This document shows positions 782 through 57,657 of a stretch of DNA of 64,000 nucleotides, piece after piece (position 1 is the first letter of the stretch; the number at the start of each line of letters is the position of its first letter). The DNA lies in the NCBI RefSeq assembly GCF_041260155.1, contig NC_091945.1, positions 29,552,796 through 29,616,795 of the forward strand, written 5' to 3'. A program made the translations under genes and the position numbers. This stretch comes from Ptychodera flava. Taxonomy: Eukaryota > Hemichordata > Enteropneusta > Ptychoderidae. The notes under the pieces were generated by a model that was given only the letters and a program-made list of their open reading frames with translations, had not been told where the DNA came from and did no database searches.

Positions 782-7565
<6,784 letters not shown>

Positions 7566-9392: not shown

Positions 9393-10415
9393 CTAAAGCT
9401 ATTCAATCCGATATTTTTATTTCCAGATACCGATGAGCCGTGACGCTGTAATTTCTATATTCAAAAAACGACAACACGTGGACAATGGTGAGTATTATTA
9501 CCGCTTCTCTCAAAAGACTCGCGTTTGACCTTTCACGGACGCTCGTCGTATTTACAGGACATTTGGCGATTTGGTACTAAGGTTCAGCACATCTACAGTA
9601 ACTTGATTTGCATTGATCAGCTAAGATAGCACAAATGAAGTAAAAGCTGCGTTACATATTCCCATTACTGAAAATGGTCGTTGGGCGTTCTCCGTGAGGT
9701 GCATTGATGGCCTTACTGCTTTAAAACTGACAACAAACCTGAGATTTCGACCTGATTCGGCTATACCGGGATAGCTGTCTCTTGTTTCTCAGTGCCTTTG
9801 CTTGATCAGTGACAGTTGAGTTGCTCCGTCCACTGTGTGTGTATGGCTCTGTGATGGGAACGTTTTACGTCATCGTTTAAGTGAAACTAAAAATGTACGT
9901 GGAATCCAATGAAGTACTCAACAACGCCACAATAAGCCTGACCCGAATACACTGCAGTGACTATTTGCATATGAATACCATGGACATACCATTTAGGTTC
10001 AATCGATTGCGGAAGTTCACCGGTGAGATCCACCTCCGAAACTTCAAACTCAATACAATCCACTCTTGTGGAAATAATATGATATCACTCATTAAGGTTG
10101 ACGCCAGTCATGCGGATTAAGTCAGGGAAACGCGGGTTTGTCAATCTACAATAGCATATTTGAAAGTAAAATTAAGGGGAAAGGTCAGTCTGGGTCATCC
10201 CATCCAGTTAGATAGCATGTAGTATCTTTACTGTAATTATATCATACCAGTATATTGTTTGCGCAAATACAGCGATCTGATTGGTCGAGACGCGAAAAGA
10301 ACCATGGTATATTGGCAATATATTACGGCTGGCACGCGCGCGTGCTCTCAGCTTGAACAAAATTCGGATTTTGACGTTCCACGCCAGAATTTCAATATAC
10401 TGTTATGATATAATA
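9393..10415. other. No gene recognised
   Basis: Open frames here are short and have no recognisable domain or splice context. The 79-codon plus-strand frame at 9881-10120 resembles nothing I know. The stretch may include the TRPC 5' exon and promoter, which I could not place. Confidence 0.5.
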
Positions 10416-10540
10416 GCAATAAATCACACCCAACGACTGTATACCACGAGAATTTGACCAGTTCACTTCATCTATGCACTCGCTATGTCGTGAACTGGTC
10501 AAAATCTCGTGGTATACCGTAGCTTGGTGTGCTTTATTGC
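10416..10540. mobile_element. Foldback element (51 bp arms), gcaataa family
   Basis: The left arm 10416-10466 (gcaataaatcacacc...) and right arm 10490-10540 (...gtgtgctttattgc) are near-complementary around a 23-base loop. The flank 'tataata' and the gcaata terminus match the foldback at 26006-26144, so they belong to one family. It has no coding capacity; a non-autonomous foldback or MITE is inferred. Confidence 0.75.
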
Positions 10541-11436
10541 TTAAACATGGCCTAGCCGCATTAGAAGTGAACACGGCTGGTTGTATGAAGATCTTTTGTA
10601 GTAAGGCTCATTATCAGTGCATGAAAATTTTAGATCAGACATAACCGACCGATACTTCATCGTTTTATGAGGTTGGAGAGGCACCATCCCAATATAGCAA
10701 AGTCACATTGGGTCATCTTTAAGTGTGGCAATCACCGGTATTGGACATACAGGTAAACGTTGAGTCGTAACAGGTTGGTTTCCACCATTTATCTTTTCAA
10801 ATTCAGGATTCCGTTTACTTAAGTTTACTTTCAGAGGGTCAAAGAGACAATACACCTGTATCTTTCCTTCCTGTATCTTTCTTTCACTTAGAAATAAAAT
10901 CGTCGATTTTCACTGAAACCAGCGTAAACTATAATATTTCCAAATGATTACATGCAAATGGTAAACCAGCTGACGTCGACCATTGGTTTAGATTTCTACA
11001 CGTCAAAATCTGTCTCTGAAAGTGTGTTTTCGTGACAAGTTGTGCAAGCAGTTTCTCGACAAAATCGCTGGGATCGACATTCTGCACAAATGGCGCCAAA
11101 TAAGCCTATCACCAATAATCCATTAAATTATACAGGAGGTAATATTGATTGCATAACTTTCCCGCATTGTTTGTCTCATTGCCTGAAATACCGTCAAGGA
11201 CAGCGTGCTCACATTTGGTTTGAATTGGTCCATTCAAGAAATATTTAAACCTGAAAAACAAGAATGACAAAAGTAAATAAGGTCTGCAACTTAGGTACTG
11301 GAGGTCATCTTTAGGAACATACATATCAACTTCTATAGCAATAGGACAAGCAGATCCTATATACATAAGCAAATGTCAACAAAAATATTAAACGGATGAA
11401 AAACAAGACCCTGTTCCAAAATAGAGTTTATTTCTA

Positions 11437-11484
11437 AAACTTCGACGTTTCGATTCCACACAGGGAATCTTCATCAGGAATCTA
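11437..11484 (-). ncRNA. Hammerhead ribozyme motif (intact core), downstream Penelope repeat
   Basis: On the minus strand the core reads CTGATGA, one A, a six-pair stem II (GATTCC / GGAATC) with loop CTGTGT, then GAAA and CGTC. Stem III is only the palindromic ACGT, with no loop room, which fits ribozymes that act as dimers. The predicted self-cleavage is after GTC. Stem I starts with TTC/GAA. All invariant core residues I can check are present. Hammerheads with minimal stem III are known from Penelope-like elements. Confidence 0.85.
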
Positions 11485-11834
11485 AGAAACAACAAAATTT
11501 CAGTAAATATGGGACTCGTAAAAAAGAAAATGAGCAGCACTGGCGTAAAACCATTTAAAAACTATTCAAAATGAGTTGTTGGTTTATATAAGGAAATATA
11601 GCTAAAAATCAATCTGTACAGACGAGAAGAAAAAAGTTTTGAACTTACAAACAGAAGACGAGTGAACACTCAGTCTAAAAGTAGCGATGTTGACCGGCCG
11701 GATCGTACAAAGCCAATGACGCGAAATACAATGAAAGGGAGGGCTCCCTAGAACAAACAACTTACAGACATGAGGAAAGGACTCCCTAGCTGTAGGTGAA
11801 GCGGATGTGAAAACCTATAGGAACTGTACTATTT

Positions 11835-13361
11835 TTACCAGTCCTTTTTATTAATGCCGTTGGGTGACAGAGTACCAAGCTTATGAATGAAATGAAGTTC
11901 AAGCTGTTTTCTTATTTTATCTGCTTTTGAATACACTTTGCAAAGACTAGAGAAACGAAAATTATTGATGTTGTGCCCGGGTTCATGAAAGTGGTGGGCT
12001 ACTAGAGTATGTTTATGAGTTCTGATACTGTATAAATGTTCATTAATTCTAGTACGGAGTTCACGTTTCGTTTCGCCTATGTATAATTTGTTACACTTAT
12101 CACAGATAATGACGTAGATGATATTGCGTGTATTACATGTTACATGTCCGACAAGAGGTTGAGATTTTCCAGTGAGTTGGTTGGTTATGGAATTTTGTTT
12201 TGTTTTCAGCATGTGGGGACATGTTCTATACACTTGTTGCAGGGTGTACAATCACCTGGTTCTGTGTCGTTTTGTGTAGATATTTTAGCTGGGCTTTTAC
12301 CAGCATTTTCTTTATGTTTGGTGGTTGTCGGAATGCTACAACAGGTGGTTTGTCAAATGTAACTTTTGCCTCTAGATGTGATTAAAGGATAGGCCAATGT
12401 TTGTTGATTAAGGAGGAGATACTAGGTAGTGACGGGTGGTACGTCAGCACAAATGGAATCCTCGCAGAGTGTGTCTATTTTTTGTGTACGTAATGAGTTT
12501 TTCCCGGGAATGATTTCTTGCATTGTTGATTGCAGTGACGATTGATGCTTGCTTGCAGTATCTATCTGTAAGATGTCTATGTAGGTTCTCAACGTCTTTA
12601 TTGTATAGATCAGTGGATGAGCATATACGTCTATAGCGAAGGGCTTGACCTTGGGGAATTGATTTAAATATGTGACGAGGGTGACACGATGACGGCAAGA
12701 GGTAAGAGTGTTTGTCCGTTGGCTTGCTGTAAACCGTAGTGTGTATTTTATTTTCCCTCATCATCACCTTACTGTTCAAGAAGGAGATTTCGGTGTCGCT
12801 GTATTCAGTGGTGAATTTGAGTGATGGATCATGGATTGAATTACAATATTCGTGAAATTGAAGGAGTTCTTGTAGAGTTTTTAACCATATGAAACGTATA
12901 TCGTCGATGAATCGTCTCCATTGCATGAGTTTAGTGGGATAATTAGCGAGTATTTGTTTTTCAAGTTTACCCATCGTTATGTTCGCATAGGATGGAGCGA
13001 CTTTACTTCCCATTGCTGTGCCTTGTACTTGTAAAAATATTTGCCATCAAACTGAAAGTAATTTCTGGTGAGGATAAATTCTAACATTTCTGTGATAAGT
13101 TGTTGGTTGGACGGTGATACATTGTTGTCAGCAAGTGCTTCGCGTACGGCTTGAATTCCATAATCATGGGGAATGTTGATGTACAAGGATATTACATCCA
13201 TTGTGACAAGGATGGAATTATCTGGCGCAATGATGTCCTGGCTGTCTTTTAGATGGTGGGTAGTGTCTTTCGAGTATGACGGCAAAGATTGGACAATAGG
13301 TTGAAGAACGTGGTCCACATATACTACTAGTGGTGATGCCAGGGTTTGGCATTGCGGAATT
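11835..13361 (-). pseudogene. Penelope-type reverse transcriptase with GIY-YIG endonuclease, broken
   Basis: Reading from high to low coordinates: RT fingers/palm with DHVLQPIVQSLPSY and VTMDVISLYINIPH; then APSYANITMG and the catalytic FIDDIRFIW box near 12900; then SFLNSKV and the thumb region; then AFRQPPNIKKMLVKAQL (about 12310); then the endonuclease with IIYVIICDKCNKLYIG and ETKRELRTRINEH (about 12010-12130), closing at stop 11835. In the family, RT copies the template and the GIY-YIG nuclease nicks the target. Damage seen: a one-base frameshift in a T run near 13035, another frameshift near 12462, an in-frame TAA near 12387, and a further shift in the cysteine-rich linker near 12245. 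The N-terminal portion before the RT palm is absent. Confidence 0.92.
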
Positions 13362-13509
13362 ATCGGAAGGTCTGTACGGATTGATTTTTAGCTATATTTC
13401 CTTTTATAAACCAACAACTCAGTTTTTCGAATAGTTTTAAATGGTTTTACGCCAGTGCTGCTCATTTTCTTTTTTACTAGTCCCATATTTACTGTAATTT
13501 TGTTGTTTT

Positions 13510-13558
13510 TAGATTCCTGATGAAGATTCCCTGTGTGGAAACGAAACGTCGAAGTTTT
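13510..13558 (+). ncRNA. Hammerhead ribozyme motif (one stem II mismatch), upstream inverted repeat
   Basis: The plus-strand counterpart of the motif at 11437-11484: CTGATGA, GATTCC, loop CTGTGT, GGAAAC, GAAACGTC. One base change makes an A-A mismatch in stem II; the core is otherwise kept. It sits antisense to the reverse transcriptase because the repeat is inverted. Confidence 0.75.
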
Positions 13559-13929
13559 AGAAATAAACTCTATTTTGGAACAGAGTCTTGTTTTTTCATC
13601 CGCTCAATACTACTCTTAAGACCAAGTTTCATTGCCACCTAGTACCTGTTACTGTAGTTGGACTGACACCAGTTCTAAAGACAAACTCAAAAAATTAGCC
13701 ATTGAAGGCTTCACAAAAAGAAAAGGTTTGAAGAGTGGGGAAAAAATAAAGAGTGGAAAAAAATGTACCAGGTATCTGGTAAAAGTAATGCTACCTCATC
13801 GATCTTCTAGACCCTAACCCCTTCTGAAATGTTCCACCCCTTTGTTGCTCGTATTTACATAAGTCCAGATGGCAGGAAATGTATTTACAACTTTGGGATT
13901 TTTTAATTAATGCTATGAGTGCTATCATT

Positions 13930-15655
13930 CGAATGTAAACAGCACTTAAATTAGTTACAGATAGTGCCTTCCTTGGTGGGGGTGATTACGACATCTGGAA
14001 TTATCCTGGATCCAAATTTCTCACCAGTTCTTGTGTGTCTTACATCGAAATGTTGCAAAAATTGATCCGCAATGAAAAAAATACTTCAGCTTTGTTTTCT
14101 GGATCACATTTTGCTACAAATCGATACCAAATATGACAAAATTATGTTCACAGCCTTCGAAACTGTCTCACAACATATCCTGGGTTGGTGTAGGTTATTT
14201 AAGGTCACAAACTGAGAAAATTACCTAAAATATAAAAATTTGGGGGTTTCCCAACACTTTGAGCAAACAATTTATCTAATTACATCCATCAGGAATTTTG
14301 TACCAAATTACAAAGCTATCAGGCAAGTAATTTTGAGAACAAGTTTCCTTGACCAAAAATGACAAAAGTGTCTTAAAAATACAAATTTGTATATTTCAGG
14401 ACAACTTCCACATATCTAACTATTGTCTTCCCTGGACATCTGTACACAAAATATAAAAGATGTCTGTCCAGGGGCTTTAAAAGAAAAATAATTTTTACGA
14501 TTTATTGACCAAAATGACAAAAATTGCCCCAAAACAGTCATTTTTCCAATTTTGTCGCAATTTCAACAAATTAGAAGGGTAACCCCCTTGCAAACATCCA
14601 ACCCAAATTTAAGGGAAACTGGGCTGGCGGTTTCAGAGAAGAAGAATTATTTAACATCAGGAAAATAACCAAAAACTTCAGCAAAACTACAAAATTCAAG
14701 ATATCTTCACAATATACATAACACTGTATAAGGTCTAGGCTAAGGTACTTGCATACTAATTTTCAAAGCAATCAAACTAGCGGTTCTTGAGTTATTGATT
14801 TTTGACCATTTTTACATTTTTTTAAGCTCATTTGCATAATTTGGGCACTGCAAACTTCATTGGAACAAAATCTCGTCTACAGCCCAGGATGCATCCACAG
14901 ACCAAATACCGCGCTAAAAAAAGCAGCGGTTTGTGAGTTTTTGAAGTTGACGGACATACTAAACAAACATACATACATACATACATACATACATACATAC
15001 ATACATACATACATACATACATACATACATACATACATACATACATACATACATACATACATACATACATACATACATACATACATACATACATACATAC
15101 ATACATACATACATACATACATACATACATACATACATACATACATACATACATACATACAATACATACATACATACATACATACATACATACATACATA
15201 CATACATACATACATACATACATACATACATACATACATACATACATACATACATACATACATACATACATACATACATACATACATACATACATACATA
15301 CATACATACATACATACATACATACATACATACATACATACATACATACATACATACATACACACATACATACATACATACATACATACAGACACATACA
15401 CACATACACACACACATACATACATACATACATACATACATACATACATACATACATACATACATACATACATACATACATACATACATACATACATACA
15501 TACATACATACATACATACATACATACATACATACATACATACATACATACATACATACATACATACGCCACCGACTTCAGCTTATATGATAACCTCACA
15601 TTGGTATAACCAAATGTGAGCTAATAAAACCACCTCAAATTATTTTTACTTACTG
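13930..15655 (+). mobile_element. Tandem-core element with (ACAT)n and conserved 3' end (pearl/HINE-like), copy A
   Basis: Degenerate units of roughly 150 bp share phrases such as 'gaccaaaaatgacaaaa' and 'accaaattacaaagctatcag'. A closing block (ctcatttgcat, caaaatctcgtctacagccc, gcagcggttt, gttgacggaca) runs into a 600-base ACAT array and then an end block finishing 'aaatgtgagctaataaaa'. The same order occurs at 19.0-20.6 kb. The layout (core repeats, microsatellite, short 3' end) is that of bivalve 'pearl' and Drosophila DINE-type Helentron derivatives. No coding capacity was seen. The left boundary is uncertain. Confidence 0.6.
14967..15567. repeat. (ACAT)n microsatellite, about 600 bp
   Basis: An almost pure tetranucleotide array with one slippage at about 15161 and a CACA-rich interruption near 15390-15415. 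The long MYVC and YIHT frames in all phases are artefacts. Confidence 0.98.
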
Positions 15656-17166: not shown

Positions 17167-20100
17167 TCACATTTTAGATTTATTAACATTGAACCTTACA
17201 ATGCTGTGATATATGTCTTCTTTACCTCTTCTAATGATGAAGTAAATTATGTATGGTTTATCTTTGTCTTCCCATGAAATTATGTCCAAGATTTGACCGG
17301 CTCTGCTTTCACCAATATGCAACAAAGACAATGATTTAATAGGGTATAAGGCAATGTCTTGGGTGAAAAGTGAATACGCATGGTCCCTAGCACCGAATGC
17401 CGCACAGTCCATACAGTATTTGATGTAATTTGATTGGTTGACATGATAATTGGAATCCATGTCGCTTGCACGCACTGAGACGGAATAGCGATATGAATGT
17501 GGAGGCGGCTTATCCAATATTGGCCTCATGAAACTGTATGTACCACGGTGTCCCTTTACGAAGGGTAAGCTTTGTTTTACACGGGCAGCATCAAATTCAA
17601 CAGGCCTCCTGGTAGCTTTACCAATTAGCACCATCACAGTTAAACCACTGCACACCAGTTCACCGGTATTGGCGATTTGAAGTTCATGTCGTACGCAGTA
17701 CGAAGACCTCCCGATGTGTTGAATGGAGCAGATGCCTTTCAGTTGTGTGTCACGTGATACTTTCCCATAAAGGGCTGGATACACAGCTATTTCCTTTGTC
17801 TTGACAACGATCAAATAATTTGGGTGTACGATAATCTTATTCGGATCACAGCCACGCGAAGTCATATTTCTTGTGTCTGCTCTTGGGTATAGGAACTCAC
17901 GGTGTAGTCCACATCGTATCCCTATCACTCTCAATACTTGAAATAGGTAGGATGCCTTCCAGATGCTTAACGTGCCTATTTAAATGAAGTATAATCGTGA
18001 GTGATTCGTCATTTTTATGTAGTTACGCCTCGAAAGTGAAAGACTTAAACTTTGCTCAAACTTTCCTTCAGCAAACTTTCAACCATTCTCTTTCAAACTA
18101 AAAAAAATCAGGGGATCAGTGTGCAAAGTTACCCAATATTTACCAATATATACCTATATTTACCTATATTTACCAATATTTGACTTTAAACATGGCCGCC
18201 AGCCCTGTGTTATCTCTATAGGGAGAATAAAACTTTACTTACTCCGTACATTTTGAAAATGAGCCCCACAAAAAAGACGCAAGAGTTTCACAGTTCGGAG
18301 CAATATATCTTTAAGTAATGTCATTTGACTGCTAGTCATATGTAATACCATCATAATGGATAACTGTCCGATGGAACAGTAGAAATAGTAATTCTAAAAA
18401 ATAGTGACAATGTCACTGGTCGCTCCCATATAGTTATCAAAACAAGCTAAAATCAAGCTAAAGATTTTTTATCACAAATAGAAACAATTCCCCCAATAAA
18501 ATAAATTATACAAATTTCACCAGAATTTGATCAAATCTTACTGACGTCACCCGTAAAAACCTCTACCTAAGTTTCAACTCAATCGGACGTGTGGTTTCAG
18601 AGTTAAAAAAAATTTTTGATCAAAAATGAAAAAAATAGCCAAAAAATGCAAATATGCAAATTTCACCACGATTTGCCCAGATTTGAGAAAGGTCACTCCT
18701 ATGCACTTCCATACCAAGTTTCAAATCAATCAGACTTGTGGTTTCAGAGAAGAAGATTTTTTGACAAAAAATGGGAGAAAATTACAAAAAAATTCATGAA
18801 AAATAGCAAGTCCAAGATACTGACCCAAGATGTGCACAATCATTTCAGGTCAGCCCAAAGTACTTACATGCTAATTTTTCATCTAATCTGCTCAGTGGCT
18901 ATTGAGATTTTCAATAAAATGTAAACTTGTAAACATATATACATATGGCTATGGAGCTAACAAACGACCCAATGGTCGACAGAGCTCTGCTGTGTTATGA
19001 AGAGAGCAACGTTTTGTGACATATGTATTGATGAAGAAGGTTGAGATCTTTGATAGCTCATTTCAGGATGGCCTGACCTAAAATGGCAAAATTAGCTGCA
19101 AAAATACAAAATTGATGATTTCATCATAATTATGTATAAAATGTATACCAAATATCAAAGCTATCACATGAGTAACTTTTGAGAAACAAATATTTTGACC
19201 AAAAACGGCAAAAACTGACCCAAAAATACAAAAATTGAAGATTTCATCAAATTTCACTATATCACACTAAGAGAACCCCCAGGAACCTGTATACCAAATA
19301 TCAAAGGCATCAGACAAGTAGTTTTTGAGAAACACATTTTTTGACCAAAAATGGCAAAAATTGCACCAAAATACAAAATTGCAGATTTCATCATATATTC
19401 TGTATATCATATTTAGTTTATCTGTAGGAACCTGTATACCAAATATCAAAGCTGTCAGACGAGCGGTTTTGATGAAATAAATTTTTGACCAAAAATGACA
19501 AAAAAATTCCTTAAAAATACAGATTTGCTTATTTCATCACAATTTGAACAAATCCAAGTTGGGCTATCCCTAGGGACCTGTATACCAAATATCAAAGCTG
19601 TCAGACGAGCGGTTTTGATGAAATAAATTTTTGACCAAAAATGACAAAAAAATTCCTTAAAAATACAGATTGGCTTATTTCATTACAATTTGAATAAATC
19701 CAAGTTGGGCTATCCCTAGGGACCTGTATACCAAATATCAAAGCTGTCAGACGAGCGGTTTTGATGAAATAAATTTTTGACCAAAATGACAAAAAAATTC
19801 CTTAAAAATACAGATTTGCTTATTTCATCACAATTTGAACAAATCCAAGTTGGGCTATCCCTAGGGACCTGTATACCAAATATCAAAGCTGTCAGACGAG
19901 CGGTTTTGATGAAATAAATTTTTGACCAAAAATGACAAAAAAATTCCTTAAAAATACAGATTTGCTTATTTCATTACAATTTGAACAAATCCAAGTTGGG
20001 CTATCCCTAGGGACCTGTATACCAAATATCAAAGCTGTCAGACGAGCGGTTTTGATGAAATAAATTTTTGACCAAAAATGACAAAAAATTCCTTAAAAAT

Positions 20101-21451
20101 ACAGATTTGCTTATTTCATCACAATTTGAACAAATCCAAGTTGGGCTATCCCTAGGGACCTGTATATTAAATATCAAAGCTGTCAGACAAGCGGTTTTGA
20201 TGAAATAAATTTTTGACCAAAAATGACAAAAAAATTCCTTAAAAATACAGATTTGCATATTTCATCACAATTTGAACAAAGCCAAGTTGGGTTATCCCTA
20301 GGGACCTGTATACCAAATATCAAAGCTGTCTGACCAGCGGTTATGAAGAAGGAGATTTTTTACCAAAAACGCCTTTTTTGGCACTAATTTGCATATTTTT
20401 GGCAATGACAACTTCATTTGAACAAAATCTCATCTACAGCCCATCATCCATGTACACACCAAATATCAAGATGAAATGTGCAGCGGTTTTGGAGTTTTTG
20501 ATGTTGACGGACAGACATACAGACATACAGACATACAGACATACAGACATACAGACATACAGACATTTTCCTAGCCTATAAGAATAGCTTCCATTGCCAT
20601 ATATACATATGGCTATGGGAGCTAAAAACTCATCAAACGGTTAGATACTATTGCGAGTAAAACAGTGTTACACTGTTTTTTTATGTTCTGCAAATTAAGA
20701 TACAAACTACATGTGCTAGGTTTTACGATAACCCAGGCAGAAATGGTTTCATTATTGTATCGGAAAGCGGGCAACACCAACATTTTTCTTTCCCTTTTGA
20801 CGACAATTGTTTTCCCTTTTTTCCGTTTTTTCCATAGTCCAAGATGAAAATCTGTATTGAGAAATGAGATTCCATTCTAAATTCTAAGCATAATTTTCAA
20901 TGCATGATGACGAGGCGACAGTAACATCATTGCCTCTATGTTGGACTAGAATAAATTTGGCTCACTTGAACGACGTAGCTCGAAGCCGCCTTGATGCTGT
21001 CTGAATAGTTTAGAATCGATATGAATTCTGAAACTGAGTGAATGCCACTTTTCTCGAAGCAAGCTTGCTGAAGCATAATTTTCAATATATATGACACATA
21101 CAGGGACCGTGCCTTGGCAGAGTATTTAAACTGTCAATCACCGTACTGTGATGTACATGAGTGACACAATCTGATTATAATCCACTCGAGATGTGTCAGT
21201 CTTTTTAGCAATCGTGTAGTAGCTTATAACCAACAACATAGTTTAATCAGATTGCTTAATCAGATTGGTTAATCTGATTTTTTGACACGAAAATGATGGC
21301 ATTTGATAGAATTGGTCTCAATTATGCAAATGCACACTGATAAAGATGATTTCAAATGAAGTCACGTACCTGTTCGGTCGAAGTAGTCGTAAGCTAATTC
21401 ACGAAATATGACAGTAACATCTTTACCATCCTCTGATAATTTGAAATCCAT
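17167..21451 (-). CDS. Double-hotdog acyl thioesterase-like protein
   Basis: There are two exons, 21370-21451 and 17167-17936, joined in phase (G|TA gives Val28), for 283 residues. The start ATG lies in a strong context (aaaccATGG). The N-terminal half begins VTVIFRELAYDYFD, like a first hotdog strand. The C-terminal half carries SVRASDMDSNYHVNQ then SNYIKY (about residues 182-201), the typical hotdog motif with Asp, His and Asn, as in acyl-ACP and 4HBT-type thioesterases. Members hydrolyse acyl thioesters, but substrate and compartment cannot be read here; no signal peptide is evident. The whole second part is one unbroken exon with a TGA stop and a nearby AATAAA. The single 3.4 kb intron is filled with tandem-core repeats. 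The family is fairly sure; the exact enzyme is not. Confidence 0.85.
18440..18965 (+). mobile_element. Tandem-core element, short copy B1
   Basis: Two to three divergent core units (aaatttcaccacgatttg, ccaagtttcaa, ggtttcagagaagaagat) are followed directly by the end block 'catatatacatatggctatgg' plus 'agctaac'. It lacks a microsatellite. It is inside the hotdog gene intron and has the same family end as the neighbouring copy at 20.63 kb. Confidence 0.6.
19000..20632 (+). mobile_element. Tandem-core element with 145-146 bp units, copy B2 (pearl/HINE-like)
   Basis: The phrase 'ggacctgtatacc' (or close variants) starts at 19282, 19427, 19574, 19720, 19865, 20011, 20156 and 20302, so the unit is 145-146 bp. 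The units from 19574 onward are nearly identical and the earlier ones diverge. After the last unit come 'caaaatctcatctacagccc', 'gttgacggaca', a CAGACATA microsatellite (20510-20567) and the end block 'catatggctatgggagcta'. Open frames through the units are non-coding. It lies in the intron of the hotdog gene. A Helentron-type non-autonomous element is inferred from the layout only. Confidence 0.7.
20510..20567. repeat. (CAGACATA)n microsatellite
   Basis: About seven units of an eight-base repeat directly after 'gttgacgga'. It is the counterpart of the 600-base ACAT array in copy A. Confidence 0.95.
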
Positions 21452-49849: not shown

Positions 49850-50808
49850 GAAGCCAATAAAATATTGCACATTCATAATACATTATCATTATCATGTGTC
49901 ATGCCTGGGTCTCGGTGGATATAGGACTGTAAATTCCCCACTTCTTATTATGTGCAGACATTTTCTCTTTTCTAAAGGCAATGTGAAACTCAGTTTCTTG
50001 TACAGAGTTAACAAATCTTTTGTATGCTATAAAGCTTGGTAGTTTTTTTTTACTAAGACAGATATAAATGTACCTTTTACCAATAAGAAGTAGGAAATTT
50101 ACAATAACAGAAAGTTTGGGATCACCTAGTATGATCTGCCATAGTGTTGGTCTTTTTCTCAATTTTAAGTTTTGTCCCCATATTATAAAAATTGACTCCC
50201 AAAATAATTGCACGTGTTGACAGTCATGTAAAATATTTCCTTGTTGTTTTTGCAGAAAGAACATAGAGCACTATCAACCGTTGGAAGATTCATTTTACTC
50301 AGTGTAGCATTTGTATATAGGATATTGTGTAATATTTTAAACTGAAACTCTCTCAATTTATAGTCTATAGTTATTTTTAATGGAAGTTGATAAATTTGGT
50401 TCCAGTTGTCCATATTGATTTTAAATTCATGTTCAAAGTACAGTTCTGATTTTGGTTGTATGTATTTGATGTGTGATTACTTTTGTATTACACAGTTCCA
50501 CACTAATTGACCTGTTATTTTCCAATACAATGTTTACTTCATCGTCATCATCAGCTGTACTTTGCTGATTTACTTGTATGTTGGCTGGGATAACACTTTT
50601 TAGTCCAAACCATTTCAATATATATATGGATGATTGAGGGATACCTTTACTAAGTACAGAATCCAAGTCCAGCTTTTGACCATTTTCATTGTACAGTTGT
50701 TCTAAATATAGAATTCCTGCTTCCACAAATTCCTGGACTGTGTAGCTTTTAGTACCTGCGGGCGAAGTCCACGACAAAGGCTTGCTTTTTGTCATGTCAG
50801 TTACGTCC
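49850..50808 (-). pseudogene. LINE (L1/Tx1-like) ORF2 C-terminal remnant
   Basis: Minus-strand pieces read FVEAGILYLEQLYNENGQ (about 50700), then after a frame break WNQIYQLPLKITIDYKLREF, FKILHNILYTNATLSKM and CSFCKNNKE (50240-50410), then a further frame with HDCQHVQLFW (49900-50240). This matches the C-terminal part of L1-type ORF2 after the RT domain. It ends near 49850 without a clear poly(A) tail. At least two frame breaks are present, and a MITE is inserted at the TTAA at 50809. The RT domain itself was not found beyond the MITE. Confidence 0.75.
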
Positions 50809-50812
50809 TTAA

Positions 50813-51728
50813 AGAGGCACTCCCACTTGGTAACATTTTTAAAACACATTTTCTTAATGCCAACGGTCGATATTTGACATGGCGACTGCGCGCGGATCGC
50901 GAGATATCGATAAAAACATGTCCTCAATAAAGTTAAAGTTTGAATTCCGGTGGCCCACCTGAATTCAGCTTCCGAACATAGAACGTTCGGCACTGGGGCC
51001 ATTGTCAACTAAGCTATGGAGTACGAGTCTATGCTGACGCTGCTGTACGCCACAGCAGTACCACTCGCGTCGGTGAGCGGTCATGTCCCATGGGAGAAAG
51101 CCGAGTCCTACTGACTCGGCAAAAAAACGAAAAACAAAGTTTGCTGATTCCACCAGAATTCGCATAGGTGACTAGCACAGATAGGTGCGGTTGGTACATA
51201 GTATGCATAGTGGCCGCCGCGTGGTATGCGCGCATACCACACGCGGCGGCCGCTATGTATCGAACCACGCGTAACTGTGTGGCAGACGACAAAATGTAGT
51301 CATCAGAGGCAACTAATATTTTACACGTAAAAACTGATATCTATGTGGTTTGTTTAAAAATTTAATACAACTGATTGAGAATAATGAAAACGACAAAAAC
51401 TAAGGAGAAGTCTTAAAAAAGAATTACCAGAGGTAAAGGCATTGATAATGATGTATATAAAGTCTTCGCAGTATGAGGTAAATTATTTGCGTCATTCGAA
51501 CGTTTTTGGACTCCTTAGAATATCGTCAATCAGCACAACAACACACTTTCGGGGGATTTCGGGTCATAACCAGAAACGATCGTAAAACTTCGGGATGTGA
51601 AAAATACGCTCGGGAAATGACATGTTTTTATCGATATCTCGCGATCTGCGCGGAGTCGCCACGTCAAATATCGACCGTTTGCATTAAAAAAATGTGTTTT
51701 AAAAATGTTACCAAGTGGGAGTGCCTCT
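50813..51728. mobile_element. TTAA-flanked MITE with about 113 bp terminal inverted repeats
   Basis: The left end is agaggcactcccacttggta (50813 onward) and the right end its inverse, ending accaagtgggagtgcctct at 51728. TTAA stands directly outside both (50809-50812, 51729-51732). The arms match for about 113 bases with a few changes. A second palindrome, 51189-51266, lies in the middle. There is no transposase. A TTAA target is the piggyBac signature, although these ends lack the usual CCC start. Confidence 0.88.
51189..51266. repeat. GC-rich palindrome at the MITE centre
   Basis: 'tggccgccgcgtggtatgcg' is followed by its inverted copy 'cgcataccacacgcggcggc'. It is probably a hairpin or a foldback nested within the MITE. 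Confidence 0.8.
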
Positions 51729-51929
51729 TTAATCTATGCGCAGAGTTTCCCCGATCACTTTCTTTTAAAGTTGGTATACGAGGACACGAGTCAATGTTAG
51801 ACATACAGTCTTATGTAAGTTTGTTCCATGAAATTGCCCCCATGTGGCCAGTTGTTTTAATTTCCTATATCTTATTTGGAACAATTTATTTACAATTTAA
51901 TCTCAACACCCGCTCATGTAGTTCGGGTT

Positions 51930-52010
51930 TCGCTCATTTAGTTTTTGCTGAGTCATCACAGTCAAAATTTGATTACTTAGAGGACGAAAATAAAAATACA
52001 GCAAATCTAT
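51930..52010. repeat. Fragment of the repeat also found at 39455-39540
   Basis: 'tttcgctcatttagttttt' and 'tcatcacagtcaaaat' are shared with the end of the DR1-bearing repeat copy 2. Here the fragment leads straight into a microsatellite. Confidence 0.65.
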
Positions 52011-52013
52011 GTC

Positions 52014-52044
<31 letters not shown>

Positions 52045-52080
52045 TGTATGTATGTATGTATGTATGTATGTATGTATGTA

Positions 52081-52131
<51 letters not shown>

Positions 52132-52256
52132 ATGTATGTATGTATGTATGTATGTATGTATGTATGTATGTATGTATGTATGTATGTATGTATGTATGTA
52201 TGTATGTATGTATGTATGTATGTATGTATGTATGTATGTATGTATGTATGTATGGC
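52014..52256. repeat. (TATG)n microsatellite with a central (TCTG)n block
   Basis: TATG units are interrupted by about 13 TCTG units (52080-52132). The long MYVC frames are artefacts. It follows the repeat fragment without a gap. Confidence 0.98.
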
Positions 52257-53079
52257 TTGAACTTGTCCATGAGTACCTATTATATATCCTTCCTACTACC
52301 TGTGCACTTTTTCGAAGAAAGTCAATCCATATTTAGTGTCCAGCCCAATCCCCTCCACTAATATATTACTTCCGATCACAAACGTGGGGGACGATTGCCC
52401 GGAAGCCATGTTTACCTTATGAGTTGTTTTTGAGAATCCGGGCGCTGACCTTCCGCGTTGATGATCGGAAGAAAAATCTACAGAAGGGTGATTAGGTGGT
52501 CAACTTACACATATGGATTGTTAGGCTATAGACACAGTACACAACTCTTTCATCCACTTAGCCGACCTGCGCGTAGGGCTTCGAATTCGGTATATCATAC
52601 ATTGTTGTCTTATAATATCGGTTTATTTCGGACGACACACTCGTCCATGTGTATTTCAGAATAGTGACATCGATTTGCTAGCATTAATTGATCATACAAC
52701 TTACAGCTTACAGCTGCTTATGGAAATACATTCCATACATATTAGTATCCGGTAAATTAAGATCGGAATCTACATATGCATGCAAGATCCGATTCTCGCG
52801 CTAATGCTTTTACAAAAGAAAACTACATGTTCTGGAGGGTATATTGTTTGTTTTTCCATCACTGTTATTGTTTGGTTTTCCATCGCTGTTTCACGGTTTA
52901 TCAATTTTTCCTGCATAGCATTTTGAAGTGGAATTAATTTAATTCCCTACTTTTATTTCAAATTTAGTGGTGAAGTGCGATTAAGTTCATATTATGAAAC
53001 GTCACTGTTTTGAAGGAATACCAGAATCATATCTCTAGATTAAAGAAAACAGCAAAACATTTACTTTGTCAGTAACAGA
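52257..53079. other. Intergenic; nothing recognised
   Basis: It contains short frames only. It borders the 3' end of the calmodulin-like gene. Confidence 0.5.
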
Positions 53080-54648: not shown

Positions 54649-55931
54649 GTATGTCAGTATACAACGAGAATCTTTATAAGGCAATATTTCTTATCAAAGA
54701 TGACATTAAAGCCCTCTGAAAGTAATTAAGTGTTCAAATACAAGAGAATCTTAAGTTAAGTATGACAGCAATAGTTGACATAAAGGACGAAAGGTACATA
54801 AATGGGATGGAAAACCTTAAAGGGACAAAGTCGGCCATTTTTTCATAAATTTTGTTTGATAAGAGATACTATATACATTGTTGAAAGATAGTGAATAAAT
54901 GGTTGACCATGCATATATTCGACCCCGGTTTTACACAAATTAAATGAAACCATCGCGAAAATGAATTAACGTTCATGACCATTCATTCGTTTTCGCGATG
55001 GTTTCATGTATCGTGTCCAAAACTGGGGTCGAATATATGCATAGTCACCCATTTCTTCAGTATCTTTCAAAATGTCAAACAGTATAAATTGTATCTCACA
55101 TTAAACAAAATTCATGAAAAATGGCCGACTTCGTCCCTTTGATTTTGGTATAAATGATCAAATTAAGTCAAAAGCTTCATACGATTCTATAAAATTTAAT
55201 TGTAGTATATGTAGATTAAAGACGAGTTTGTTTCGCATTATCTATCTTATTCTTAAATGGCAGGGTTTGAAAGACTGACACCTATGATCAAATCGAAAGG
55301 TTAAATGACTCTTCAAAATTTAAGAACTTTTCCCTAACGAAATCGTTGTAGTGCTGTATAGTATTTAAAGAATATAATGCGTAAATATCACAAAGTTTGA
55401 TTTTGCCTGAGTGAAATTCAATTTTATTGAATTGCTAGAAAATTGAGAAATCAGAGGCTAGGAAATCGGGATATTTGCGTAAATCTTTCTTCCTAAAATC
55501 ACGACACCTTGTCATGCTGATGAAGCCAACGAACATTTTAATCTTGGGTCAATTGATTAAAATTGAATGAATCTTTGCAAAATCAGTGATTTTCAGCAAA
55601 ATACGCCGTGTGCAGCTAATGGCAATTATCAATTACAGTCTGATCACTCTATGACAAATTGATGTGTATGTATGAAATACGTCGGCGAACATTTCCCAAG
55701 GTTATCACATAAGATTGGTTATCAGAATCTCACCATCAGCATCCATTTTCTGAAGCGTTTCCTTAATTTGTTCTTCTGTCCGAATTTGACCCAATGACTT
55801 CACGAAGGCTGCCATTTCGTCAAGCGTGATTTTACCGTCCCCATCCTTGTCGTAGCGGGAGAATGCTTCCTTGATACCTGAAACAAAATATGTTTTAACA
55901 AACGTCATGATGTCACTAACATAGTTACATA

Positions 55932-56028
<97 letters not shown>

Positions 56029-57657
56029 CTCTCTCTTAATTGTACGTCTGTTAAGAAGAGGTTATTCCTTTCGAATTGAAATGGACTTTGAAGATTTATA
56101 ACCTAATTAAAATTTTATGTTATTACATGTTATATCGTTTCCAGGTGACTGGATGAAGATAGAAATATTTGGTTCTCATCTCAGAGGTGAAAACTGTCAC
56201 CCCGTTTTAACTTTCTCCCCACAAATATGGCGTTATTCATATTTAACTAGCCCTTATAATCATTATTCAGGATTTTACAATGGCTGCTAATTTGCCAAAG
56301 AGCCATAAAAATTAATAAATATATATTGGATTCGGAGCCTAGTGTTAATGAATTAGTGACGTTTCTTTTCTCGCTTCGTCTGCAGAGAACACGTAGCGAA
56401 ACACAATCTAAGAAAGCTGTTACAGTAGTAGTCATAGAGATCGACCATTGTTAAGACCTCAAACATGTCCCGGCGTTTTCCGTTGAACTTGATTTCCACG
56501 CAGTCTTATTAATCGTTTATTGATATCTTGATGTGAAGTGGAAGAACTTTATAGCGTCCTCAGCACTGATGAGTACTTTTGACAAATGCATTCACTTTTA
56601 TCAAGTTTTTAATTCCAATGCATTTTATCGTGAGAAACCAGTTACTTATGTCGAAAGAGTATGCGCTGTTGTATCTCGTTTGGCCAACTCAGATTAATTT
56701 GGTTTGCCTGTTTGGTTTTTTTCTGGATTTTTTTTGTTTTGTTTTGTTTTTTGTGTTTTTTTTTTTGTCATAAAGAGCATTTAAGTCAGTATCTCAGGAA
56801 TTCAGCAGAAGGAAGTATGACTTCAAAATCATCCCTTGAAGGGAAGGTATATTTTTGAAAAACTGCAGGCCCACCTTTGTTAGAATCTGTACCATAATGT
56901 AATCTGGCATTCTTATATCGAACTTAAAGTATTAGATAGCAGAGATTTATATGACTTAAAAATGTCTAATAACAACAAATGTGTCCCTTAATTTAGGGTA
57001 GCACACTTTTAAACGTTATCCCCCTTCTTCATTCTTTTCCAAGCCTTAATCTTGTAGTTTTATATCGAACTTGAAGAATTAAATCTCCATAAGACTGTAT
57101 CTTTTGGCTATTTTTCAGAACTTTTGTTTTGTGGTTTCCCTACACTTTCTGCATATGCTTCACCGGGACATATTTAAGGTCTCAATAGACCATCATCAGG
57201 AGAGGTGACAAAGTATGGGGGGAAAAGTTTGCAGCAATTATAATGCATGAATACTGCTATCTGGGTGTTACGTCGCGAAAAACATGTGTTGAATTCGGGG
57301 AGAATGAGTATGCAAACCATTCAACTTCCGCAAATATTTGTCGAGCCTTCGATTGAGGCAAAAGTTCTTGTTGGTATTTCCCGAATGAATACCCCATCCA
57401 CTCCACACAGTCATTTCTGAGTGTTATAGGAAGGGGACTCGATCCCAGGGATCGGGTTCGTTCTAGTACTTACGAGGATTAAGGAGGTGTCATAGCGTTT
57501 TGTTTTCCATTTAAATTGTAATCTTGTAAGTAAATTTCCTGGCACACAATCTGACGCCTCGCCTTTAAGTGGCGATAATCATACGCGATATGATATTGAC
57601 GTCAAATGGTATGTACTTACGTGCAACTTCTTCTTCGGACAGTTTATCAGCTTCAGC
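53352..57657 (-). CDS. Calmodulin-like protein with four EF-hands (first exon not found)
   Basis: Four phase-matched exons were found: 57621-57657, 55734-55877, 54117-54356, 53352-53386. They give 151 residues. An initial exon holding little more than ATG is expected upstream, as in calmodulin genes, and would give about 152 residues against 149 for calmodulin. The N terminus [18 protein letters not shown] aligns with the calmodulin start. The calcium loops are [36 protein letters not shown] and [12 protein letters not shown], all canonical at positions 1, 3, 5 and 12. It ends [10 protein letters not shown]. The second hand differs from calmodulin ([20 protein letters not shown] in the linker), so this is a calmodulin-like paralogue and not calmodulin itself. 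It is expected to be a cytosolic Ca2+ sensor; its target is unknown. Confidence 0.9.
54463..54549 (-). repeat. tRNA-derived SINE-like head with Pol III boxes
   Basis: On the minus strand, box A TAGCCGAGCGG (54528-54538) and box B GAGTTCAAACC (54471-54481) both match the Pol III consensus. Their spacing suits a Ser/Leu-type tRNA with a long variable arm. No proper anticodon arm or acceptor stem forms, so it is a tRNA relic or SINE head and not a working tRNA gene. It lies in an intron of the calmodulin-like gene, in the same orientation. Confidence 0.65.
54590..54641. repeat. (TA)n microsatellite
   Basis: A TA run of about 50 bases with a short CACA end, next to the tRNA-like sequence. Confidence 0.97.
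54821..55140. mobile_element. Full-length palindromic MITE (about 150 bp arms)
   Basis: 'agggacaaagtcggccattt' at the left and 'aaatggccgacttcgtccct' at the right begin arms that pair almost to the centre, including 'gcatatattcgacccc' / 'ggggtcgaatatatgc' and 'tgaaaccatcgcgaaaa' / 'ttttcgcgatggtttca'. The loop near 54970-54985 is short. The left flank is ttaa; the right flank ttga is imperfect. It is in an intron of the calmodulin-like gene. Confidence 0.85.
55141..55733. other. Intron of the calmodulin-like gene, nothing recognised
   Basis: It is AT-rich with no repeat structure or conserved motif that I can see. Confidence 0.5.
55937..56036. repeat. (CT)n microsatellite
   Basis: A CT run of 100 bases with one TT interruption. 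On the minus strand it is a GA tract just upstream of the exon 55734-55877 acceptor. Confidence 0.98.
56037..57620. other. Intron of the calmodulin-like gene, nothing recognised
   Basis: It contains a T-rich tract at 56720-56770. No further exon fits, because the flanking exons already join in phase. Confidence 0.5.

Follow-up and report, generated by a model that had tools for sequence, protein, structure and literature searches.

Can a hammerhead ribozyme motif that keeps its core letters inside a decaying transposable element still cut RNA? This question is raised by a 64,000-nucleotide stretch of the genome of the hemichordate Ptychodera flava (NCBI RefSeq assembly GCF_041260155.1, contig NC_091945.1, positions 29,552,796 to 29,616,795 of the forward strand; hereafter the window, with positions counted from its first letter), in which an earlier reading made from the sequence alone had placed an intact hammerhead core within a Penelope-like element (PLE). 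We find that the locus is very probably a decayed, 5'-truncated PLE of the GIY-YIG class bounded by inverted pseudo-long terminal repeats (pseudo-LTRs), that each arm carries a minimal type I hammerhead motif of the PLE type, and that the motif is probably silent. The anatomy of the element, its homology, covariation between two families, and the folding of one arm on the other in silico carry this reading, to which we add, by inference, a cleavage chemistry, a dependence on dimers or protein, and a mechanism of integration.

Two Hammerhead Motifs in the Inverted Arms of a GIY-YIG PLE

Read on the minus strand, positions 11477–11444 give CTGATGA, an extra A, a stem II of 6 bp, and then GAAACGTC, and the CTGATGA, the six-pair stem II, and the GAAAC-GTC described by the sequence-only reading are therefore all present in the order claimed. 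Under the numbering used for hammerhead positions, every letter of C3–A9, G12–A14, A15.1/U16.1, and the NUH triplet is present and in order in this copy (copy 1), and the cut is predicted from that numbering to follow 11444; the triplet, GUC, is one that the NUH rule for hammerhead cleavage triplets allows. The self-complementary ACGT is, as had been proposed, the only option for a stem III. Two features had been overlooked, namely a bulged stem I of 14 bp that pairs 11492–11478 with 11443–11428, and a second copy of the motif (copy 2) that differs from the first by one letter (GGAAAC for GGAATC). The pattern CTGANGA..CGAAACG occurs twice in the 64-kb window, whereas 100 shuffles averaged 0.00 occurrences.

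The motif copies sit in inverted arms of approximately 240 nt that share an identical outward end (11386 and 13609); of the 242 columns of their alignment, 228 are matches, 8 are mismatches, and 6 contain gaps, so that 228 of 236 aligned bases are identical (table 1). Between the arms, a reverse transcriptase (RT) fragment is followed by a GIY-YIG endonuclease (EN) open reading frame (ORF), which is the domain order of GIY-YIG class PLEs. The match of the RT fragment to Pfam RVT_1 (E 0.0018) falls below the cut-off of that model. Because the RT corresponds to a 765-amino acid frame of another PLE only from residue 274 onward and is split over two frames, we regard the element as 5'-truncated and frameshifted. 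Apart from the RT, Pfam models found no host exons near the element on the minus strand between 7000 and 16899. The association with a PLE that the earlier reading proposed is borne out by the GIY-YIG domain, by RT homology to a tandem PLE, by the inverted pseudo-LTR arms, and by covariation with a distant PLE.

Table 1. Coordinates of the Element and Its Motifs in the Window
Feature	Position	Strand	Remarks
PLE, 5'-truncated and frameshifted, with inverted pseudo-LTR arms at its bounds	11386..13609	-	
3' pseudo-LTR arm (direct orientation)	11386..11623	-	motif copy 1 and tail
Inverted pseudo-LTR arm	13370..13609	+	motif copy 2; same outer terminus
RT fragment, two frames (13366-13019, 13043-12561)	12561..13366	-	matches residues 274-546 of 765-amino acid PLE ORF
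GIY-YIG endonuclease ORF	11835..12251	-	PF01541 E 1e-9; 31% identical to LJHE01000041.1 PLE
Hammerhead motif copy 1 with stem I, stem II, and core	11428..11492	-	
CUGAUGA core (C3-A9)	11471..11477	-	
Extra A (position 10) between A9 and stem II	11470..11470	-	also in distant PLE
Stem II GAUUCC-CUGUGU-GGAAUC (six pairs, six-base loop)	11452..11469	-	pairs 11469-11464 with 11457-11452
GAA, ACGU palindrome, and C17	11444..11451	-	palindrome could form stem III only when one copy pairs with another; predicted cut after 11444
Hammerhead motif copy 2	13517..13550	+	pair 10.2/11.2 of stem II broken (A at 13541)
28-codon open frame, opening at AUG inside CUGAUGAAG and running almost to the element's edge	11391..11474	-	

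A Distant Relative with the Same Motif

A loose motif pattern matched at least 120 stretches in viral contigs, and among those listed the longest gap-free stem II was 5 bp, in 3 of 120. A stricter pattern, which required most of the core, extra A (A10), and ACGU letters and placed no requirement on stem I, matched 96 stretches in prokaryote genome contigs and 4 in viral contigs. Two of these 100 (L158 and L159) are in LJHE01000041.1, an 11-kb contig of an Epulopiscium single-cell assembly that holds a tandem two-ORF PLE whose RT is 35–36% and whose EN is 31% identical to those of the window element. Its motif is present in two direct copies 5441 nt apart, with the core, the extra A10, and the ACGU palindrome all as in the window; unlike the window element, it has a strong GC-rich stem I, GUU in place of GUC, and direct tandem units, and the first ATG of its ORF1 lies 364 nt downstream of the motif. 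Duplication during assembly was considered for this contig and rejected because its units are not identical, with differences at 31 of the 5577 positions where they overlap.

Epulopiscium is a fish-gut bacterium, and the PLE DNA in this contig is probably contamination from the host fish. The motif pattern was found in one of five genomes of the genus, the source itself, and was absent from the four others; ORF2 of this PLE (the fish ORF2) was found in one of 24 genomes of the family, again the source, and was absent from the 23 others. Such confinement to the source genome fits contamination with host DNA. Among the 220 listed loci from both motif patterns, L159 alone is matched by the window RT and the fish ORF2. 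In viral contigs no relative of the window element was confirmed by protein and an RT DNA signature had 0 matches, and in phages and plasmids the window RT had no match. The window GIY-YIG domain weakly matches one viral contig, L010 (E 2e-4, 32% over 94 aa).

Covariation, Fold Stability, and Rfam Searches

We aligned the two window copies and the LJHE01000041.1 copy with MAFFT, taking the structure from window copy 1. Of the 55 cells of this three-row alignment 94.5% are paired, and among the 20 pairs 7 are changed on both sides; neither value was reached in any of 500 shuffles, and structures slid along the alignment gave 31–54% pairing (maximum 53.7%). Stems I and II, without a stem III, are thus kept as base pairs in two families, with one pair of stem II broken in copy 2. 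Because the distant PLE shares the core, the extra A, and covarying stems, a genuine motif of the PLE type is the most likely explanation.

Several observations weigh against this reading. In the number of further pair types, 28 of the 500 shuffles did as well as the alignment, and the covariation comes from two families only, with two of the three rows near-identical and a structure derived from copy 1 that favours copy 1. The core itself departs from the consensus, since the extra A at 11470 separates A9 from G10.1 and stem II, and the earlier claim that the core is intact in all positions is accordingly not supported, the hammerhead consensus having no such base. By the energy of the hammerhead-competent fold, which for copy 1 is an unexceptional -14.2 kcal/mol, copy 1 stands 27th and copy 2 stands 61st among 101 of the 102 matches to the pattern, the remaining one (L160) having been dropped at the end of its locus. 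Searches with the Rfam hammerhead models gave no match, whether at gathering scores across the entire 64-kb window or at E values up to 10 over 7 kb and over 121 bases. Finally, no target-site duplication, a variable and optional trait of PLEs, was found, as the 40-nt flanks of the element have no word of 5 or more letters in common.

The extra base need not be fatal. A base inserted at the same place, between A9 and G10.1, in one viroid hammerhead, that of the CChMVd plus strand, is tolerated with a moderate loss of rate in an unrelated context, and both the position and the name A10 used here for 11470 are taken from that insertion (PMC3705267). Among the 20 pattern matches with a G+C content of 0.50 or less, copy 1 is fourth, tied with a viral match, and copy 2 is eighth; both LJHE01000041.1 matches rank first and second of all 101. 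Given the middling ranks of the window copies, stability by itself is weak evidence at best. One other match, L215, has the longest gap-free stem II (6 bp with G-U allowed) but lies outside the 12 best folds listed.

The earlier reading had named a missing covariance-model hit as grounds for refutation, and the search indeed returned none. Yet the better-preserved LJHE01000041.1 copy reached only 16.7 bits with Rfam HH9 (RF02275), compared with a cut-off of 52, and its extra A was aligned as an insertion, so that this test proved a weak one and the null result does not refute a hammerhead of the PLE class. The Rfam nulls stand without a positive control: in four viral loci that have hammerhead-like letters no hammerhead was called at the gathering score, and none of 14 control genomes brought RF00163 to its cut-off. 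These results from two families suggest that the standard Rfam hammerhead models may miss PLE motifs. The Rfam null and the unremarkable energy rank could also be taken to mean that the likeness to a hammerhead arose by chance, but that is hardly credible for a motif with 0.00 occurrences expected per window that sits in the pseudo-LTR of a PLE and covaries with another PLE.

Activity of the Motif at This Locus

As an isolated 80-nt RNA, copy 1 prefers in silico a misfold in which core bases are paired with CGUCG, and the probability of an open core is 0.0024; the corresponding values are 0.0022 for copy 2 and 0.216 for the LJHE01000041.1 relative. In the predicted 2224-nt transcript of the element, pairing with the 5' arm takes up 231 of the 238 bases in the 3' arm and 32 of 33 bases in the motif. 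Since the motif copies run in opposite directions, the element holds no tandem dimer; with no tandem partner available and the arms paired to each other, the motif, although genuine, is probably silent at this locus. Nor does the intact core testify to retained function, because about 64% of copies would be expected to keep it by chance (15 core sites, equal divergence of the arms since insertion).

Hammerheads of this type have precedents. Cervera and de la Pena in 2014 and Lunse et al. in 2017 reportedly described minimal type I hammerhead motifs of PLEs. As other papers describe them, these motifs resemble those of the window in lying in a pseudo-LTR and in having stems I and II, no helix III, and an ACGU compatible with dimers; the window motif differs in its extra A10 and its inverted rather than tandem arrangement. 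PLE hammerheads, lacking helix III, may cleave as dimers (PMC7761336). A close comparison is PAc (Poseidon, from Anolis carolinensis), a GIY-YIG PLE that shares with the window element a hammerhead of stem I, stem II, and loop II and, probably, the location of that hammerhead at the start of the ORF (PMC11167929). PAc is tandem and expressed, in contrast to the inverted window copies, in which the AUG lies inside CUGAUGA. Its RNA was cleaved only with its protein, cleavage needed C3 and G8, and its authors detected no RNA-seq ends at the site of cleavage (PMC11167929). Where the window family has intact tandem copies, the motif would sit at the start of the pseudo-LTR and ORF and could cleave after GUC, either as a dimer whose halves form a common ACGU stem III or aided by the protein of the element.

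The claim that the ribozyme may still cut any transcript across the site fares worse. Every consensus core letter is present besides the insertion, GUC is a permitted triplet, and A10 is tolerated in a natural viroid hammerhead, as noted above for PMC3705267. Nonetheless, an intact and active hammerhead is very improbable here, given a monomer without stem III whose core is seldom open, a second copy that is inverted rather than tandem, burial of the motif in the arm duplex in silico, the lack of an Rfam match, and the behaviour of PAc, whose RNA stays uncut without protein and lacks RNA-seq ends at the cut site. That claim is therefore weakly supported at best.

A different possibility is that the hairpin is a conserved RNA element of PLEs, serving in protein binding, as a translation start, or as a signal on the RT template, and does not cleave itself. 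The recurrence of the extra A10 in two PLE families and the probable start codon within the core of the window element would suit such a role, as would the finding that hammerhead-inactivating mutants of PAc left its insertion in vitro unaffected (PMC11167929). We consider it unlikely, because both families have retained C3–A9, GAAA, and ACGU, letters with which a simple hairpin could dispense (with the proviso that the search pattern required most of these letters), and because PAc cleavage depends on C3 and G8. In the preferred reading of a PLE-type hammerhead that is probably silent, the window contributes a further PLE that has both a covarying hammerhead fold and an inverted pseudo-LTR, and suggests that the insertion of a single base into the core, A10, is a recurrent feature of distant PLEs; the element itself is an ordinary relic that changes no established view.

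A Probable Start Codon within the Core

The motif is located in a pseudo-LTR arm, and the AUG inside CUGAUGAAG is probably the start of the PLE ORF, by analogy with PAc and with the Pen2 elements discussed below (PMC11167929, PMC3846280). The predicted cut falls after base 31 of the frame that this AUG opens, and the corresponding AUG in the LJHE01000041.1 PLE opens only 17 codons. One could go further and suppose that A10 together with an AUG in the core (A6-U7-G8) marks a hammerhead subclass specific to PLEs, in which translation and self-cleavage exclude each other: uncut RNA would be the messenger, RNA cut after base 31 would be template only, and the protein of the element would trigger the switch. 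We regard this idea as very improbable.

Origin of the Inverted Arm

How did a second arm come to lie in reverse at the other end of the element? Most likely it was made by cutting of both target strands and joining of two cDNAs. In vitro, PAc cuts both strands and has one region in which reverse transcription starts (PMC11167929). If the enzyme of the window element likewise cut both target strands and began cDNA synthesis on each of them from a single RNA site, the two cDNAs, once joined, would yield arms in inverted orientation that end outward at the same sequence and break off abruptly on the inside. The inverted arms with a single terminus fit both properties of PAc, and the inner edge of the inverted arm is abrupt, at 13366–13370, where the RT homology begins.

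Comparable structures are known from the Pen2 family of Adineta vaga, where, as in the window, a 5'-truncated member lies between inverted 212-bp pseudo-LTRs without a target-site duplication; tails and an ORF start inside the pseudo-LTR also occur, both being seen in the related Pen2a (PMC3846280). The word "hammerhead" has 0 occurrences in the text of that paper, a difference from the window element. Its authors took palindromes at the inverted junction as a sign of self-priming on an antisense template (PMC3846280), an alternative that we do not favour because the inverted arm of the window adjoins RT sequence rather than another pseudo-LTR. The missing target-site duplication around the whole element would also agree with two separate PLE insertions head-to-head instead of a single insertion with an inverted arm. 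This is improbable, since the inverted arm stops abruptly within 13366–13370 where the RT homology starts and the inverted arrangement recurs in PLEs, including a 5'-truncated copy without a target-site duplication (PMC3846280).

Other Features of the Window

Approximately 4.5 kb downstream of the PLE on the same strand are probable exons of a TRPC-like channel (minus strand, 2098–2988, 4254–4688, and 6527–6922). The first matches TRP channels in PDB, the second matches Pfam TRP_2 weakly and below the cut-off, and the third matches ankyrin-repeat chains in PDB and no Pfam model. Between these and the element, at 10415–10541, lies an inverted repeat with 57-nt arms that are 86% complementary around a 13-nt spacer, possibly a miniature transposon.

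The frames at 50433–51008 (minus) and 51482–52336 (plus) have translations that share, by eye, TCFYRYLAI and an ISTV.IKKMCFKNVTKWECLF stretch; they are perhaps another inverted repeat, which is not among the 25 listed of 643 inverted pairs. A tandem array with a 146-bp period occupies 19277–20369 (7.5 copies, 92% matches), long (ACAT)n/(TATG)n arrays occupy 14954–15567 and 52015–52254, and several AT arrays are also present, a combination that taken alone might suggest a mollusc or a similar host. Further coding stretches on the minus strand encode a sulfotransferase (PF03567; 28371–29186), an acyl-ACP thioesterase-like protein (17167–17979), and an EF-hand protein (55705–56061).
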